IMG/VR virus record: IMGVR_UViG_3300043775_000772
Coordinates: 1-33,306 of that record
Reading direction: 5' to 3' (one strand)
From: a virus
DNA: 33,306 nt
Shown here: one piece after another, positions 13,491 to 24,139 of the stretch
Layout of the letters: each line of letters starts with the position of its first letter
Numbering within the stretch: the stretch's first letter is position 1
Made by a program: the position numbers and the translations under genes
Notes under the pieces: generated by a model
The model's input: only the letters and a program-made list of their open reading frames with translations
The model's database searches: none
Told to the model about the DNA's origin: nothing

Positions 13491-13868
13491 TTACCCTAAT
13501 AACGCTCCCTTATCTTCATAAGCGTTGTATACTTGTTTCATTTTACGAAGCATATCGTTCAAACAAGAAGCGCATGAAGTAGGTTGCTCATTCGTTTTAA
13601 ATACTCTATTATAAACTTTTAAGAATTGTAACTGCTCTGAAGGTCTGACTCTTACCGTCATTTTAGGAAGTAAGAAAGTAAGTTGATCGTGTTCTACTTC
13701 TGTAAGACATTCAGGTGTTTTGTAAGGAAACATTTTGTTTAGTTTCTCTTGTCTTTGTTTGCAGTTACAATCATCCCCAGCAATGAAATGAACTACTTTG
13801 TCTATTCCTGTTGCTTCCGTGAATTTAGCTACTGTATCACCAAATCCCTTTGATACTCTTTTTGCCAT
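13491..13868 (-). CDS. Conserved hypothetical protein with cysteine motif
   Basis: The protein has 125 residues and begins MAKRVSKGFGDTVAKFTEAT. A Cys-containing segment follows (AGDDCNCKQRQEKLNKMF), and there is a second Cys pair near residue 100 (TSCASCLNDM). Two Cys-x-Cys or Cys-x2-Cys units could bind zinc. I recall the GDDC-C-RQEKLN segment in proteins of Bacteroidota phages near the terminase, without an assigned role. It overlaps the sigma-like gene by 40 bases. A packaging or regulatory role is conceivable only from position. Confidence 0.65.
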   Translation of the reverse strand: MAKRVSKGFGDTVAKFTEATGIDKVVHFIAGDDCNCKQRQEKLNKMFPYKTPECLTEVEHDQLTFLLPKMTVRVRPSEQLQFLKVYNRVFKTNEQPTSCASCLNDMLRKMKQVYNAYEDKGALLG

Positions 13869-14311
13869 GTTTTTAGTTTTCTTTTACATTTTTTAATAGT
13901 GTGAAAAATCGAGGTTAGACTAATCGTTGTATCCTTTTCTATTTCACGCATTGACTTACCGCTTCGCAAATATAATAAAAATAGTTGTTGGTCAAACCAC
14001 TCCCATTTCTTTATTTCATTTTCAACACTCTGATAGTATAACTCTATTTCATATGTTTTGTTGTTTTCATCTTCCGATAGGTCAACCATGAGGTCTATGT
14101 CAACCATTGAAATCTCACGTTTGCAATAGTCAAAGAAGATGTTACGCAGCATTATCCAAATGAATGACTTTGTTATTACTTGGCCTTTACCGTATTTGTG
14201 AAAACGTATGTACATATCTTGAACGATGTCCTCTGCTTCGGTCTTAGCTCCGAACCTTTTTACTATTCGTACCCATTCGTCGTGGTATTGTGCTACTTCT
14301 TTTAAATCCAT
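13829..14311 (-). CDS. Sigma-70-family-like factor, candidate late-gene activator
   Basis: The protein has 160 residues from the ATG at 14311. Upstream codons run back through a terminator hairpin and are unlikely to be used. Residues 25-75 resemble sigma region 2 (AKTEAEDIVQDMYIRFHKYG, then FIWIMLRNIFFDYCKRE), the part that binds core polymerase and the -10 element. Residues 110-150 resemble region 4, a helix-turn-helix (SMREIEKDTTISLTSIFHTI, KKCKRKLK). Length and layout fit a small ECF-type factor. It is the first gene after a strong terminator and precedes the terminase and structural genes, so it probably directs late transcription. The target promoter sequence is not known. Confidence 0.7.
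   Translation of the reverse strand: MDLKEVAQYHDEWVRIVKRFGAKTEAEDIVQDMYIRFHKYGKGQVITKSFIWIMLRNIFFDYCKREISMVDIDLMVDLSEDENNKTYEIELYYQSVENEIKKWEWFDQQLFLLYLRSGKSMREIEKDTTISLTSIFHTIKKCKRKLKTWQKEYQRDLVIQ
13967..13996 (-). promoter_or_regulatory. Weak Bacteroidota-type promoter inside the sigma gene
   Basis: On the minus strand TATATTTG (13974-13967) follows TTTG (13996-13993) with an 18-bp spacer, one base short of the usual 19-21. It would serve the terminase genes. Placement inside a coding region lowers the confidence. Confidence 0.3.
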
Positions 14312-14320
14312 GTGTATAAA

Positions 14321-14355
14321 CAAAAATACCCTTACAACAATTGCTGCAAGGGTAT
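14321..14355 (-). terminator. Rho-independent terminator ending the replication block
   Basis: The arms 14326-14340 and 14341-14355 pair over nearly their whole length. The two differences from perfect complementarity are G-U pairs only in minus-strand RNA; in plus-strand RNA they would be A-C mismatches. A five-T run follows on the minus strand. Direction is therefore minus. It separates the 52-residue gene from the sigma-like gene. Confidence 0.8.
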
Positions 14356-14368
14356 ACAAATTACTATT

Positions 14369-19844: not shown

Positions 19845-21256
19845 TTGTACTTTAAATTAAATTGTCTGTTTGCCCATCCTTTTTTATAGCCCATATATTT
19901 CTCATAAGCAAAATAATCTTCTTTTGTTTTCAATTGGTGGAATATCCATGATACTTTATAACCTTTTGCTTTTTGTATCATTTCTAGTTCTTTAAATGTT
20001 GCACCTTGTATTTTAGATTTTAAAGCGTTTGAAGATAGTTTTTGAAGTTCTACAATTACATCTTCCTCTTTTTCCTTTTCGGACTTTTCAAACACGTGAC
20101 CACATTCGGGACAATCCATAATTCTTGCAGGCATAAGGTAGCAACATTCGGGACATTCTTTTATTGGTGCAGCACCTTCTTTTTTTTCTTTTTTCTTTAA
20201 ATTCCATTTTCTTGGTGCTTCCCAATAGTGATGTCTTTGAATGTTATTCCCAAAATCTAATATTGTAAATTCATTTTTTATTGGTGTAACCCTCGAGCCA
20301 CGGCCTACCATTTGAAGGAATAAAGGCAAAGACTTTGTGGCCCTATATAAAATTACAACTTCAATAGTTGGGCAATCAAAACCCGTTGTCAAAATTCCGT
20401 AGTTTGACAAAATTGCACCAGGTGTATTTTCAAACCATTCTATAACTTCATCTCTATTATTCATGTAACAATCCACATGCTTTGCGTTCAAGCCTTTGCT
20501 TACAAATGAATTTACAAGCTCAATGGATGAATCTCTACTTGGTGCAAATATTATTGCTTTCTTACCGTTGCAAATTTTTGTGTAATTATCATACACACCG
20601 TGGTAAAGTTGTATCTCTGAATATTTATCTGCCATGCTTTTCTCATCGTAATCACCAGCTTTTGTTTTTACACCTTTTAAATCAACTTTAACACCATATG
20701 AAATAGGAGTTGATAAATTACCACTCTCTATTAAATCAGGTGTATCTATGACTTGTATAATATCATCGTAAAACTTTTCCAAACTTAATTGTTTGCCCTC
20801 TCGGTGTGGTGTTGCAGTTGCACCTATTACATACGTTTTTTTATTTATGTAATCAAATAATCCATCAAATATAGATTTGTGAGCTTCGTCAATTATGATT
20901 AAATCTAAACTATGAATCCACTCTTTTAGTATTTCAATCCTACGCATTACCGTTTGAATCATTCCAACAAATAGATTTTCGTTTAAATCTACTTTTGAAT
21001 TTGGCTTTATCAATTGTGGCTTTAATCCTAACTTTAATAATACGCTATCTGACTGAGAAAACAACTCTTTCCTATCTGTTAAAATCAGTATATTTTTGTT
21101 TTTTGTAAATGCGTTTTTACACATGTAGGAAAACATAACAGTTTTGCCCGATCCTGTTGGGGCGCATAAAACTATTTTTTTATTTCCTTTCTTAAATGAA
21201 TTTTGTAATCCATCTACATATTGTTTCTGATATTCTCTAAGTTCTAAAATGGACAT
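19841..21256 (-). CDS. SF2 DNA helicase with a zinc ribbon
   Basis: The protein has 471 residues and resembles RecQ or UvrB-like SF2 enzymes of phages. Motif I CAPTGSGKT (31-39), motif II DEAH (123-126), motif III GATATPHREG (145-154), motif VI QMVGRGSR (about 315-325). Two Cys-Pro-Glu-Cys units (CPECCYLMPARIMDCPECG, near 370) form a likely zinc ribbon, followed by a helical tail. It would unwind or remodel DNA in replication or recombination. It starts 13 bases inside the primase-helicase gene and overlaps the nuclease gene by four bases. Confidence 0.85.
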   Translation of the reverse strand: MSILELREYQKQYVDGLQNSFKKGNKKIVLCAPTGSGKTVMFSYMCKNAFTKNKNILILTDRKELFSQSDSVLLKLGLKPQLIKPNSKVDLNENLFVGMIQTVMRRIEILKEWIHSLDLIIIDEAHKSIFDGLFDYINKKTYVIGATATPHREGKQLSLEKFYDDIIQVIDTPDLIESGNLSTPISYGVKVDLKGVKTKAGDYDEKSMADKYSEIQLYHGVYDNYTKICNGKKAIIFAPSRDSSIELVNSFVSKGLNAKHVDCYMNNRDEVIEWFENTPGAILSNYGILTTGFDCPTIEVVILYRATKSLPLFLQMVGRGSRVTPIKNEFTILDFGNNIQRHHYWEAPRKWNLKKKEKKEGAAPIKECPECCYLMPARIMDCPECGHVFEKSEKEKEEDVIVELQKLSSNALKSKIQGATFKELEMIQKAKGYKVSWIFHQLKTKEDYFAYEKYMGYKKGWANRQFNLKYK

Positions 21257-23643
21257 TCTTCTGCTTTTTTAAATTCGTTACTACTTGTTATTTCAAACCA
21301 TCTTTGACCGTTGGAATTTCCTTCTGTGTATGTCTTACCATAATAAGCGGAATACTTTTGTATCCAAATTGTAAAACGTTTAGACTTTAACCAACTTCTA
21401 AAATCTTTATGCTCCTGTAAAAAGTTTTCAAAACAAACACTTTTAATTAGTCTGTTGTCTTCTTGTACGTTTCCATCTCCAATCCACTCTAAAAACTCAG
21501 AAGATGTTTCATTGATTAATTTTCTATGTTCTAAATTCGTAAAGTCAAATGGTACCAATCCCTTTTCAAGGTAAAATTTTTGGCAGTTTATCATAAAATG
21601 GTCAAACCTTGCCCACTCATTTTCGTTCCAATCATCGAATAACATATGGCCGAACTCGTCTAAAGGTGTATGATTCGCATTAAAATAACTTGACATTTCA
21701 ACTTCAAATTTTCTACGTTCAAAAGAACCACCAACCCCTCCAATAGTATAGTTTGTTGTAATTACTATTTTTGGAGACTTAGTAACAGGAAGTTTAATTG
21801 CGTCCTGCCCTTTATATTCTAATGTTATACCCTCTGTAATTAATGAAAATAAAGATTCAAACTGAAAGTTCTTTTTAACGTCATCAAATACAAGCAGTTG
21901 TGTATCAACAGGAACTGACTGATAAGGAAATGATTTAGTAAACTCAAAGGTTTTACCATCTATTGCAGATACTTTTTTCATTTTACCAAGGGCATTCCAA
22001 AACAAAGATTTACCCGAACCACCGTTAGGATTATCAGAAATTGTTTCATCGTTGAATATTATCGCTTTATTGTTTGCACTTGTTTTGTAGGAGTGCATTA
22101 AGTAACCAATGACAGATTTTAAACTTTCGTATTTATTTTTATTTTGTGATGAAGCTAACCAAAGAAATCGCCTAAACTCTGAGTCATGGTGGTCTGCATC
22201 TATAAAGTCACGGTCAATTACTTGTTTTTTCCAAACAAAACCTTTTAAGTCTTCATAGTTTAATTTTTGGTAACCATCTTTAAATACTTTGATTACACAA
22301 TTACGATAGTATAAAATTGCAAAGTCAGCAGCATCTTCTTCAATGTTAAATTTTGCAGTTTCAAGCATTGACAAATATTGCGGTGTAAAAGACTTTGTAC
22401 TACCTGCAACTAAATCAAAAGGCTCTAAACTATCACTACTTAACAATTCGTTTAGTACGTGGTCTTTAATTTGAAACTCCGTTACCTCATCTACAAAATT
22501 ACCTTCCTTAGTTATGAAAGTAAAAGTCTTTGATTTATCAATTGGAAAATGCTTAAAAAAGTTTTTGTTTTCTAAATAGAATTTAAACTTATGATGTGAA
22601 ACTACTAACTTACCCTCCTCATTGTGGCTCCAAAATTTGTTTACGTCAATTTTACTTTTTTGTGCATTTATCTCAGCATCTAATTTTTCATCGCTTAAGT
22701 CAGGAAATGATTTTTTAATATAGTCGTTTGTCTTACCAACCAAAATCATATTTGAAATGGTCTTCAATTTAACCTTGTCTTCAAACTGTTTTGTACCAAA
22801 GTTAGATGTATGCTTATAAGCTGAGTTTATTAATGCTAATATTTCTTTACTATCAAAATCCTTTTGCTCGTTTGCTAAAATATACCTTTCTGCAATAAAT
22901 CTTTCAACTCCAAAATCATTAAATGCAAGTGCTAATTTATGGAATGAATTGTTACGATTTACACCGTTATAAGACTTCTTAAACCATACCATTAACCTAT
23001 TAGCTATTTGATCCTGGTCTATTAAAGGAATGTTAGTAACTACTCCTAAAGTACTATTTATTTCTACTAATTCAGTTCGCTCAAAGTCAACGTATAAATC
23101 AGATTCTAAATTAATGTAAATTGTTGGGTCGTATGATTCAAAACAAAGGCGGCTAATGTCAGCTCCCGAAGTATCTATCGTGTCACTACCGTAGTTATCA
23201 TTTACCCAACTAAAATGCTTTACAATTGATTTATAGTACTTGTTATATTCATCATTTGATTCTATACAAGGTATTTTAACCAAAGCCTTTAAACCATCTC
23301 CCGAAGGACTTATCCAAGTAGCATAAACATAGTTGTCTTTTGTTAATTTTTCCTTTAACTCTAAAACTAAATCATAGCTTTTAAGTTTGTCAAAATCCAA
23401 TATACATAAACCACTTGCCTTTTTTAAATTATCCTTTGACCTTGTGGTAAATGTACCTGCAAATGTAACAGCTGATAATTGTAGTTTAATTTTAGATTTC
23501 TTTTTTGAATCTAATTCAGCTCTAACTAATTCAATTGTTTTTTTGCTATCCCCATTTCTAATGCGATCTAAATAAAACAATACGTTTTTTGGTCTTCCTA
23601 TCGGCGTGTTTTGATAGGCGTCTTTGTAAAAATCAACATTCAT
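21244..23643 (-). CDS. PrimPol-SF3-like primase-helicase, BT4734 N-terminal type
   Basis: The protein has 799 residues. The N-terminal part (about 15-200) resembles the BT4734 or VirE-like N-terminal domain seen in Bacteroidota replication proteins, a PrimPol-like fold: LCILDFDKL (about 80-88) with metal-binding Asp pair, ISPSGDGLKALVKI (about 112-125), and SRLCFESYDP. The middle is helical. The C-terminal part (about 530-640) is a helicase-type ATPase: Walker A GGSGKSLFW (about 540-548), Walker B LLVFDDV (about 585), and sensor ITTNY (about 628). It would prime and unwind DNA at the origin. The adjacent repeat region is the likely origin. The leader contains two hairpins. Confidence 0.8.
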   Translation of the reverse strand: MNVDFYKDAYQNTPIGRPKNVLFYLDRIRNGDSKKTIELVRAELDSKKKSKIKLQLSAVTFAGTFTTRSKDNLKKASGLCILDFDKLKSYDLVLELKEKLTKDNYVYATWISPSGDGLKALVKIPCIESNDEYNKYYKSIVKHFSWVNDNYGSDTIDTSGADISRLCFESYDPTIYINLESDLYVDFERTELVEINSTLGVVTNIPLIDQDQIANRLMVWFKKSYNGVNRNNSFHKLALAFNDFGVERFIAERYILANEQKDFDSKEILALINSAYKHTSNFGTKQFEDKVKLKTISNMILVGKTNDYIKKSFPDLSDEKLDAEINAQKSKIDVNKFWSHNEEGKLVVSHHKFKFYLENKNFFKHFPIDKSKTFTFITKEGNFVDEVTEFQIKDHVLNELLSSDSLEPFDLVAGSTKSFTPQYLSMLETAKFNIEEDAADFAILYYRNCVIKVFKDGYQKLNYEDLKGFVWKKQVIDRDFIDADHHDSEFRRFLWLASSQNKNKYESLKSVIGYLMHSYKTSANNKAIIFNDETISDNPNGGSGKSLFWNALGKMKKVSAIDGKTFEFTKSFPYQSVPVDTQLLVFDDVKKNFQFESLFSLITEGITLEYKGQDAIKLPVTKSPKIVITTNYTIGGVGGSFERRKFEVEMSSYFNANHTPLDEFGHMLFDDWNENEWARFDHFMINCQKFYLEKGLVPFDFTNLEHRKLINETSSEFLEWIGDGNVQEDNRLIKSVCFENFLQEHKDFRSWLKSKRFTIWIQKYSAYYGKTYTEGNSNGQRWFEITSSNEFKKAEECPF

Positions 23644-23654
23644 AATTTCTATAA

Positions 23655-23701
23655 AATAAAAAACCTCGAGTATCGGTGGTGGAAGTCACTTCAACTCGAG
23701 G
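23655..23701 (-). terminator. Hairpin in the primase leader, possible attenuator
   Basis: Arms CCTCGAGT (23701-23694) and ACTCGAGG (23671-23664) pair over eight bases around a 22-nt loop. A T6-A-T4 run follows on the minus strand, giving terminator-like form just 12 bases before the primase start codon. The loop holds CTTCCAC, complementary to the upstream hairpin loop. It may act as an attenuator. Confidence 0.55.
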
Positions 23702-23722
23702 AATTTATAAAAAATTTCTTAC

Positions 23723-23740
23723 TGTAGCTTCCACTCTACA
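23723..23740 (-). other. 5' leader stem-loop with kissing-loop complementarity
   Basis: TGTAG and CTACA pair around an eight-base loop AGTGGAAG. Seven loop bases (GTGGAAG) are complementary to CTTCCAC in the loop of the next hairpin. The stem begins near the transcription start predicted from the adjacent -7 element. The contact is inferred from pairing alone. Confidence 0.5.
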
Positions 23741-23744
23741 AATG

Positions 23745-23752
23745 CAAATATA
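23745..23752 (-). promoter_or_regulatory. Putative primase promoter, -7 element
   Basis: TATATTTG on the minus strand matches the Bacteroidota -7 element. No TTTG or TTG stands at the usual -33 distance, so only half of the consensus is present. The predicted start coincides with the leader stem-loop. Confidence 0.45.
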
Positions 23753-23822: not shown

Positions 23823-24109
23823 ATGTGTACTGTATTATTTTAAATGTGTACTTAAATGTGTACTGTGTTAACTAATTAATATTTAATAAATTACCGCTAA
23901 AAATAAGCGAATAGTACACATTTTTTGTATTTTTCCGACAACTCGTTTCAGCGGTAAGAATAAATATATTTTTTATATAAATATATATATTATAGAGTAC
24001 CGTAATATATATAGTATAGGGTTTCAAAGTGTACTTCGTACTATTTTGCATTAACTTATTGTTTTATAATTAATTAAGTGAGTACACATTGTTTTTAAAA
24101 AGTACACAT
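23823..24109. repeat. Iteron region, candidate replication origin
   Basis: This part of the 556-base gap between the primase and methyltransferase genes carries seven copies of ATGTGTACT: plus orientation at 23823, 23844, 23856 and with one mismatch at 24027; minus orientation at 23913, 24081 and 24101. Between them lie a perfect inverted pair TTACCGCT (23891) / AGCGGTAA (23950) and a run of almost pure A/T (about 23958-24020). Repeats, inverted pairs and an AT-rich core beside the primase gene are classic origin features. A bound regulator is the alternative. No gene of any length is present in the gap. Confidence 0.65.
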
Positions 24110-24110
24110 C

Positions 24111-24139
24111 AAAAAAAAACCGACTTGTTAGGTCGGTTT
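24111..24139 (-). terminator. Rho-independent terminator after the methyltransferase gene
   Basis: AAACCGAC (24139-24132 on the minus strand) pairs with GTCGGTTT (24124-24117) around a 7-base loop and runs into nine T on the minus strand. The plus strand has only a short T run, so it mainly stops minus transcripts from the block above. Confidence 0.8.

Follow-up and report, generated by a model that had tools for sequence, protein, structure and literature searches.

The 799-aa primase/helicase-like gene of this virus is preceded by a short leader with two hairpins whose loops are exactly complementary. Judged by sequence comparison, this leader belongs to what appears to be a widespread type of RNA switch that had not been catalogued before (here called kissing leaders) and whose code differs in almost every copy. 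The leader in the window, meaning the whole 33,306-base virus record analyzed, is probably a transcription attenuator that acts in cis and is held by a loop-loop kiss.

The genes of the window include portal, terminase, ERF, ThyX, helicase and methyltransferase besides the primase/helicase-like gene, and the nearest named phage by portal protein comparison is Nonlabens phage P12024S (35.6% identity). A 176-aa protein at 13829-14359 shows weak similarity to a phage sigma factor (phrog_1740, E 9.6e-6). The primase locus comprises the following features:

21244-23643, minus strand: primase/helicase-like protein of 799 aa (Pfam BT4734-like_N and DUF5906), first gene of the transcript, ATG at 23643-23641.
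23658-23663, minus strand: U-tract TTTTTT directly 3′ of the H2 stem, read from the sequence and a property of the class.
23664-23701, minus strand: hairpin 2 (H2), terminator-like, CCTCGAGT-TGAA-GTG-ACTTCCAC-CAC-CGAT-ACTCGAGG, from the unguided fold.
23679-23685, minus strand: kiss strand 2, CTTCCAC, in the H2 apical loop, from the sequence and from covariation in relatives.
23702-23721, minus strand: AU-rich linker of 20 nt between H1 and H2.
23722-23741, minus strand: hairpin 1 (H1), TTGTAG[AGTGGAAG]CTACAG, from the unguided fold, an architecture that recurs in relatives.
23728-23734, minus strand: kiss strand 1, GTGGAAG, in the H1 loop, the exact complement of 23679-23685.
23745-23752, minus strand: predicted promoter-like -7 element TATATTTG of Bacteroidetes type, from the sequence and the class-wide TAnnTTTG.
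23825-24107, no single strand: seven GTACAC/GTGTAC repeats, present in both orientations and lying 5′ of the promoter of the primase gene.

The seven repeats are likely to be operators, perhaps shared ones, or origin iterons. A strong ordinary terminator, with stem AAACCGAC..GTCGGTTT and a T run, lies 3′ of the methyltransferase gene at 24117-24139 on the minus strand.

Unguided folding of the 85-nt leader (z -3.1) yields H1, at or adjoining the predicted transcript 5′ end and with an 8-nt loop, and H2, which has an 8-bp outer stem, a 4x4 internal loop (UGAA/CGAU), a 3-bp inner stem and an 8-nt apical loop, ACUUCCAC. Each loop thus consists of an A and a 7-nt kiss strand. H2 combines a GC-containing stem with an immediate U-tract (TTTTTT), as an intrinsic terminator does. 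The sequence-only reading of this DNA had described two hairpins with complementary loops 5′ of the primase gene, the second terminator-like with an eight-base stem and CTTCCAC in its loop. The complementarity is real, with GTGGAAG and CTTCCAC matching exactly over 7 bases, and the unguided fold returns the 8-bp stem followed by TTTTTT; the T run, placed by that reading 12 bases from the start codon, is in fact separated from the ATG by 14 nt.

Complementarity of this length could in principle be an accident of AT-rich DNA, where a lone 7-base match is generally not rare. Dinucleotide shuffling of the window leader gave a 7-base GC-containing match in 0.25% of 20,000 shuffles, and a match together with both hairpins at the observed score in none of the 20,000. 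CTTCCAC occurs only once on the minus strand of the whole window. With finder controls also at 0 and chance refuted by the loop covariation described below, an accidental origin is scarcely conceivable.

We searched 2.07 Mb of related phage loci with a finder composed of a promoter, H1, H2 with a U-rich tail and complementary loops, using a cut-off score of at least 36. It recovered 85 unique elements, compared with 0 and 0 for controls in which the loop was reversed or copied instead of complemented. An independent 1.15 Mb phage set, mostly fetched via an endonuclease gene, contained 28 elements against 0 and 0 in the controls. No kissing leader was detected in 1.2 Mb of Flavobacteriaceae chromosomal sequence of similar GC content plus 31 NUMOD4 loci, or before primase relatives in eight bacterial contigs, and the distribution is phage-restricted. 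Flavobacterium phage elemoE_6-9C has a good element 5′ of an operon for a replication initiation protein and primase; matches in phages phi46:1 and Leef_1 are weak and at chance level, and a search of P12024S found no kissing leader. The pooled elements number 112, and the 65 that remain at <85% identity carry 59 different loop codes.

Several further observations concern the class at large. Upstream of kissing leaders, no 6-mer is more enriched than GTACAC (14/65 versus 9/326 control promoters), which is also found upstream of non-primase genes (8/50). One subtype (L027 from ~7677, L029, L031, L036, L048, L120 and L200) has a near-invariant code, ACCGCCAAG/CTTGGCGGT, in contrast to the hypervariable subtypes; its H1 stem is weak or absent, and varied small genes lie downstream. 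A 54-kb relative phage with three kissing leaders encodes a tRNA and then a permuted tmRNA gene (L212:17468-17791).

The regions upstream of related primase genes share the architecture and differ in their loop codes. Loop pairs in relatives include CGTGGAAA/TTTCCACG, GTAGTGC/GCACTAC, GTGGTGG/CCACCAC, AGTGGTAG/CTACCACT, CTGGAAG/CTTCCAG, ATGCAAG/CTTGCAT and ATGGAAG/CTTCCAT, and paired variation within a single family takes the form G[A/G/C]TCTGAC with GTCAGA[T/C/G]C. Since the finder demands exact complementarity, we claim covariation only from two non-circular sets. The first comprises 35 primase leaders at <85% identity, selected by promoter and gene alone. A complementary stretch with a score of at least 17 occurs in 60% of these non-redundant leaders and in 5.8% of shuffles; several of the non-matching leaders are false promoters within genes or belong to a second, pseudoknotted leader class.

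The second set is an eight-sequence family collected by scaffold, with complementarity ignored. Here 98.4% of cells keep the kiss paired, and the covariation score lies above all 500 shuffles and every slid control. Paired changes in both loops, which the sequence-only reading had proposed to seek in relatives, were found at 4 of the 8 kiss pairs, compared with double-sided changes at none of the 21 stem pairs. The pairwise difference (without L098) is 0.23 in the kiss, 0.05 in the stems and 0.26 at unpaired positions; the kiss therefore changes in the manner of free sequence but keeps its pairing. In a comparison of five close relatives, variable columns were not significantly more frequent in the kiss than in the leader's remaining positions (p = 0.5), the contrast holding against stems only. 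The kiss shows no variation among the closest relatives of the window's own subtype, and the covariation stems from related subtypes. The apical loops of H1 and H2 are thus kept complementary by compensatory change, as in a kissing loop. Loss of complementarity in relatives had been named in advance as the outcome that would count against the pairing; it was looked for and did not emerge for the kissing-leader class.

Spacing and composition are also consistent across the class. H1 most often starts 4 nt past TAnnTTTG, the inner H2 stem has at least 3 bp in 49 of the 57 elements measured, and the end of the H2 stem lies a median of 17 nt from the ATG. In 48 elements selected without a T criterion, T makes up 65-83% of bases at +1 to +6 after the stem, while +10 to +14 is 21-40% T and 54-69% A; the order is a G-rich 3′ arm, then a T run, then an A-rich stretch up to the ATG. 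By its sequence, this class-wide pattern reads as a predicted intrinsic terminator with an ordinary Bacteroidetes start context after it. Distances from the promoter to the last base of the terminator stem cluster near 80, 91 and 102 nt in the 65 non-redundant elements, a step of ~11 nt (R 0.55-0.65, jitter p <0.0005) that was found post hoc and may reflect subtypes.

A purely structural role has been considered, in which H1 and the compact kiss would protect the 5′ end and stabilize the mRNA, the T run being mere AT-rich start context. H1 does lie at the predicted 5′ end, and a stable fold of variable sequence would suit such a role. However, loop-specific covariation exceeds what stability needs, and we rejected the reading of the T run as start context, given that the U-tract follows the stem immediately, in a sharply defined position, and can be told apart from the A-rich start context. 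We therefore regard 5′-end protection as very unlikely.

Kissing leaders precede a range of first genes. Besides primases, these encode NUMOD4/HNH, HNH and GIY-YIG endonucleases, N6 and N4 methyltransferases, a helicase-methyltransferase, DUF3310-like proteins and small proteins of unknown function. Because the same leader class lies 5′ of endonucleases, methyltransferases and small genes, it is not primase-specific. The structured primase leader, its loop pairing and its terminator-like H2 stand as first described; the switching of primase expression, and hence of copy number, that the sequence-only reading suggested is a putative role. In some relatives (L001, L002, L006 and L016/L017), the primase gene is without its own leader, and the element may head the operon. 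Leaders also move independently of the genes they precede. The L005 and L009 primases are 93-94% identical to that of the window, yet their leaders differ wholly from just past the promoter, indicating that the leader is swapped as a cassette, and a window-like leader in L150 lies 5′ of a primase from another subfamily.

Retention of structure while sequence changes would also be expected if the kissing complex were a dock recognized by shape by a phage or host protein, for translational autoregulation or antitermination. Phages offer examples of both, with the leader pseudoknot of T4 gene 32 mediating translational autoregulation and the put RNA of HK022 mediating antitermination. A tandem G-A internal loop in 18 of 65 leaders (a loose pattern) would fit a protein dock, and the GTACAC motif upstream of many leaders hints at a regulon. 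Against this, the class is without an invariant sequence core, no RNA-binding partner has been identified, and translational control needs no terminator U-tract. On balance we consider a protein dock distinctly unlikely.

Cis attenuation, which we favor, would proceed as follows. RNA polymerase would start just 5′ of H1, which would fold first, at or near the 5′ end. Some 80 nt further on, H2 would be made, a putative intrinsic terminator directly 5′ of the primase gene. As polymerase reaches the U-tract, the H1 loop would pair with the 7-nt kiss strand that the apical loop of H2 carries, and the kiss could govern the frequency or speed with which the terminator halts transcription of the primase operon. 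With its own loop code, each leader would pair mainly with itself. We infer termination, regulation and action of the kiss in cis. Linkers across the class have a median length of 16 nt (range 7-39), almost none being shorter than 9-10 nt. Within one phage, the loops of different leaders mostly do not match one another. Cis action would fit both the linker lengths and this poor cross-matching.

The geometry of the complex is not that of a simple straight cis rod, whose linker should lengthen with its helices; the opposite correlation was found (rho -0.53), and that model was rejected. Shorter linkers with longer stacked helices mean that some elements may be under strain when the kiss and the full H2 stem coexist, and we speculate that strain between a complete kiss and a complete terminator would fit mutual antagonism. 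Inspection of the window leader by eye found no upstream complement to the 5′ arm of H2 that could serve as an antiterminator; in one fold of this leader, H1 shows weak long-range pairing with the U-run.

The hypervariable codes suggest, by analogy with the CI RNA of phage P4, a trans role as the main rival to cis attenuation. A terminated leader would accumulate as a dosage or immunity RNA and pair with the nascent leaders of sister or superinfecting genomes, so that primase expression falls as copies rise. Such a role would be consistent with the 59 loop codes among 65 elements, with codes that vary faster than stems (0.23 versus 0.05) and with cassette swaps between near-identical primases, as expected of a specificity determinant. 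P4 provides the precedent, its CI RNA stopping replication-gene transcription via leader pairing (PMC4825925). However, the complementary loops here share one short RNA, so cis pairing should win; the class also precedes genes without a copy-number role, and no integrase was found among the window proteins scanned, which covered part of the ORFs. We judge trans action unlikely.

Extending cis attenuation to the whole class gives a broader and more tentative picture. The leaders of flavobacterial phages may be self-addressed RNA attenuators, in which private loop codes tie a 5′ hairpin to its own terminator, diversify and are swapped as cassettes. They would then form a specificity system preventing cross-control within and between competing phages, and may sense genome dosage or superinfection. 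This possibility is one we raise without favoring it.

Some relatives have a different, pseudoknotted leader or none directly at the primase gene. The same promoter type leads to the primase in this second leader class (L013, immediately 5′ of the primase start at 478, L045, L052, L064, L065, L159, L167, L174 and L189). Its helices are P1 (GGGG/CCCC, also GGCAG/CTGCC and GGGAG/CTCCC) and P2 (AAAAGG/CCTTT), and a covarying pseudoknot of 7-9 bp uses TTACTTGTT, TACACTGTT, TTCTTGCTA, TTCACTTTT or TCACGCT. Most second-class leaders share the conserved core TTGTCGGAGGCATCCAC. Rfam returned no match for L013, L045, L064, L159 or L167, and the second class is a candidate riboswitch or ribozyme-like RNA.

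For the kissing leaders, Rfam gave no match in the window and none at the leaders of six relatives; the best hit, a weak one, reached 17.1 bits where the cut-off is 44. Sequence-based family searches miss the class because conservation is confined to the pairing, and we found no description of it in the open-access literature searched. These elements reveal a large uncatalogued class of phage regulatory RNA. If they work as proposed, they would form a natural and compact collection of transcription attenuators orthogonal to one another and would show how Bacteroidetes phages time their replication, methylation and endonuclease genes, a subject on which we found little published.

Several known RNA systems share parts of this design. 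The RNA I/II of ColE1 and CopA/CopT of R1 have kissing loops of ~7 nt that diversify as a specificity code. These plasmid loops pair two separate RNAs from opposite strands, whereas both loops of the phage leaders lie in one transcript. The fluoride and ZTP pseudoknot riboswitches couple a tertiary fold in the leader to an intrinsic terminator. Unlike them, the phage leaders are hypervariable and without a conserved ligand-binding core or Rfam match; a metabolite riboswitch was rejected, since the members share an architecture and have no invariant ligand-binding nucleotides. The pseudoknot in the leader of T4 gene 32 and the put RNA of HK022 are phage leader structures near the 5′ end that occur once or twice per phage, and to our knowledge neither has the layout of promoter, H1 and kissing terminator.

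In the seqA-seqC immunity system of phage P4 and its CI RNA, pairing between leader segments causes premature termination upstream of replication genes (PMC4825925). The phage leaders resemble it in their position upstream of replication genes and in their RNA pairing. P4, however, uses a processed trans-acting RNA in lysogens, whereas the leaders described here are short, repeated before many genes and equipped with their own codes.

The repC attenuator of the Staphylococcus plasmid pT181 combines a 5′ hairpin, a downstream intrinsic terminator and loop-loop kissing that sets specificity (PMC4878617). The phage leader likewise lies before a replication gene and has a 5′ hairpin, a downstream terminator and kissing specificity. 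In pT181 the kiss is with an antisense RNA made from the opposite strand, whereas in the phage leader the partner is the loop of the terminator itself, within the same RNA; an antisense partner of the pT181 type was rejected, as antisense TAnnTTTG is not enriched downstream (0.185 versus a background of 0.200 per 200 nt). In addition, pT181 sequesters an antiterminator helix, and none was seen in the window leader by eye. The phage leaders are thus closest in working to plasmid kissing attenuators such as pT181 and, with a partner that is internal, form a class outside that family.
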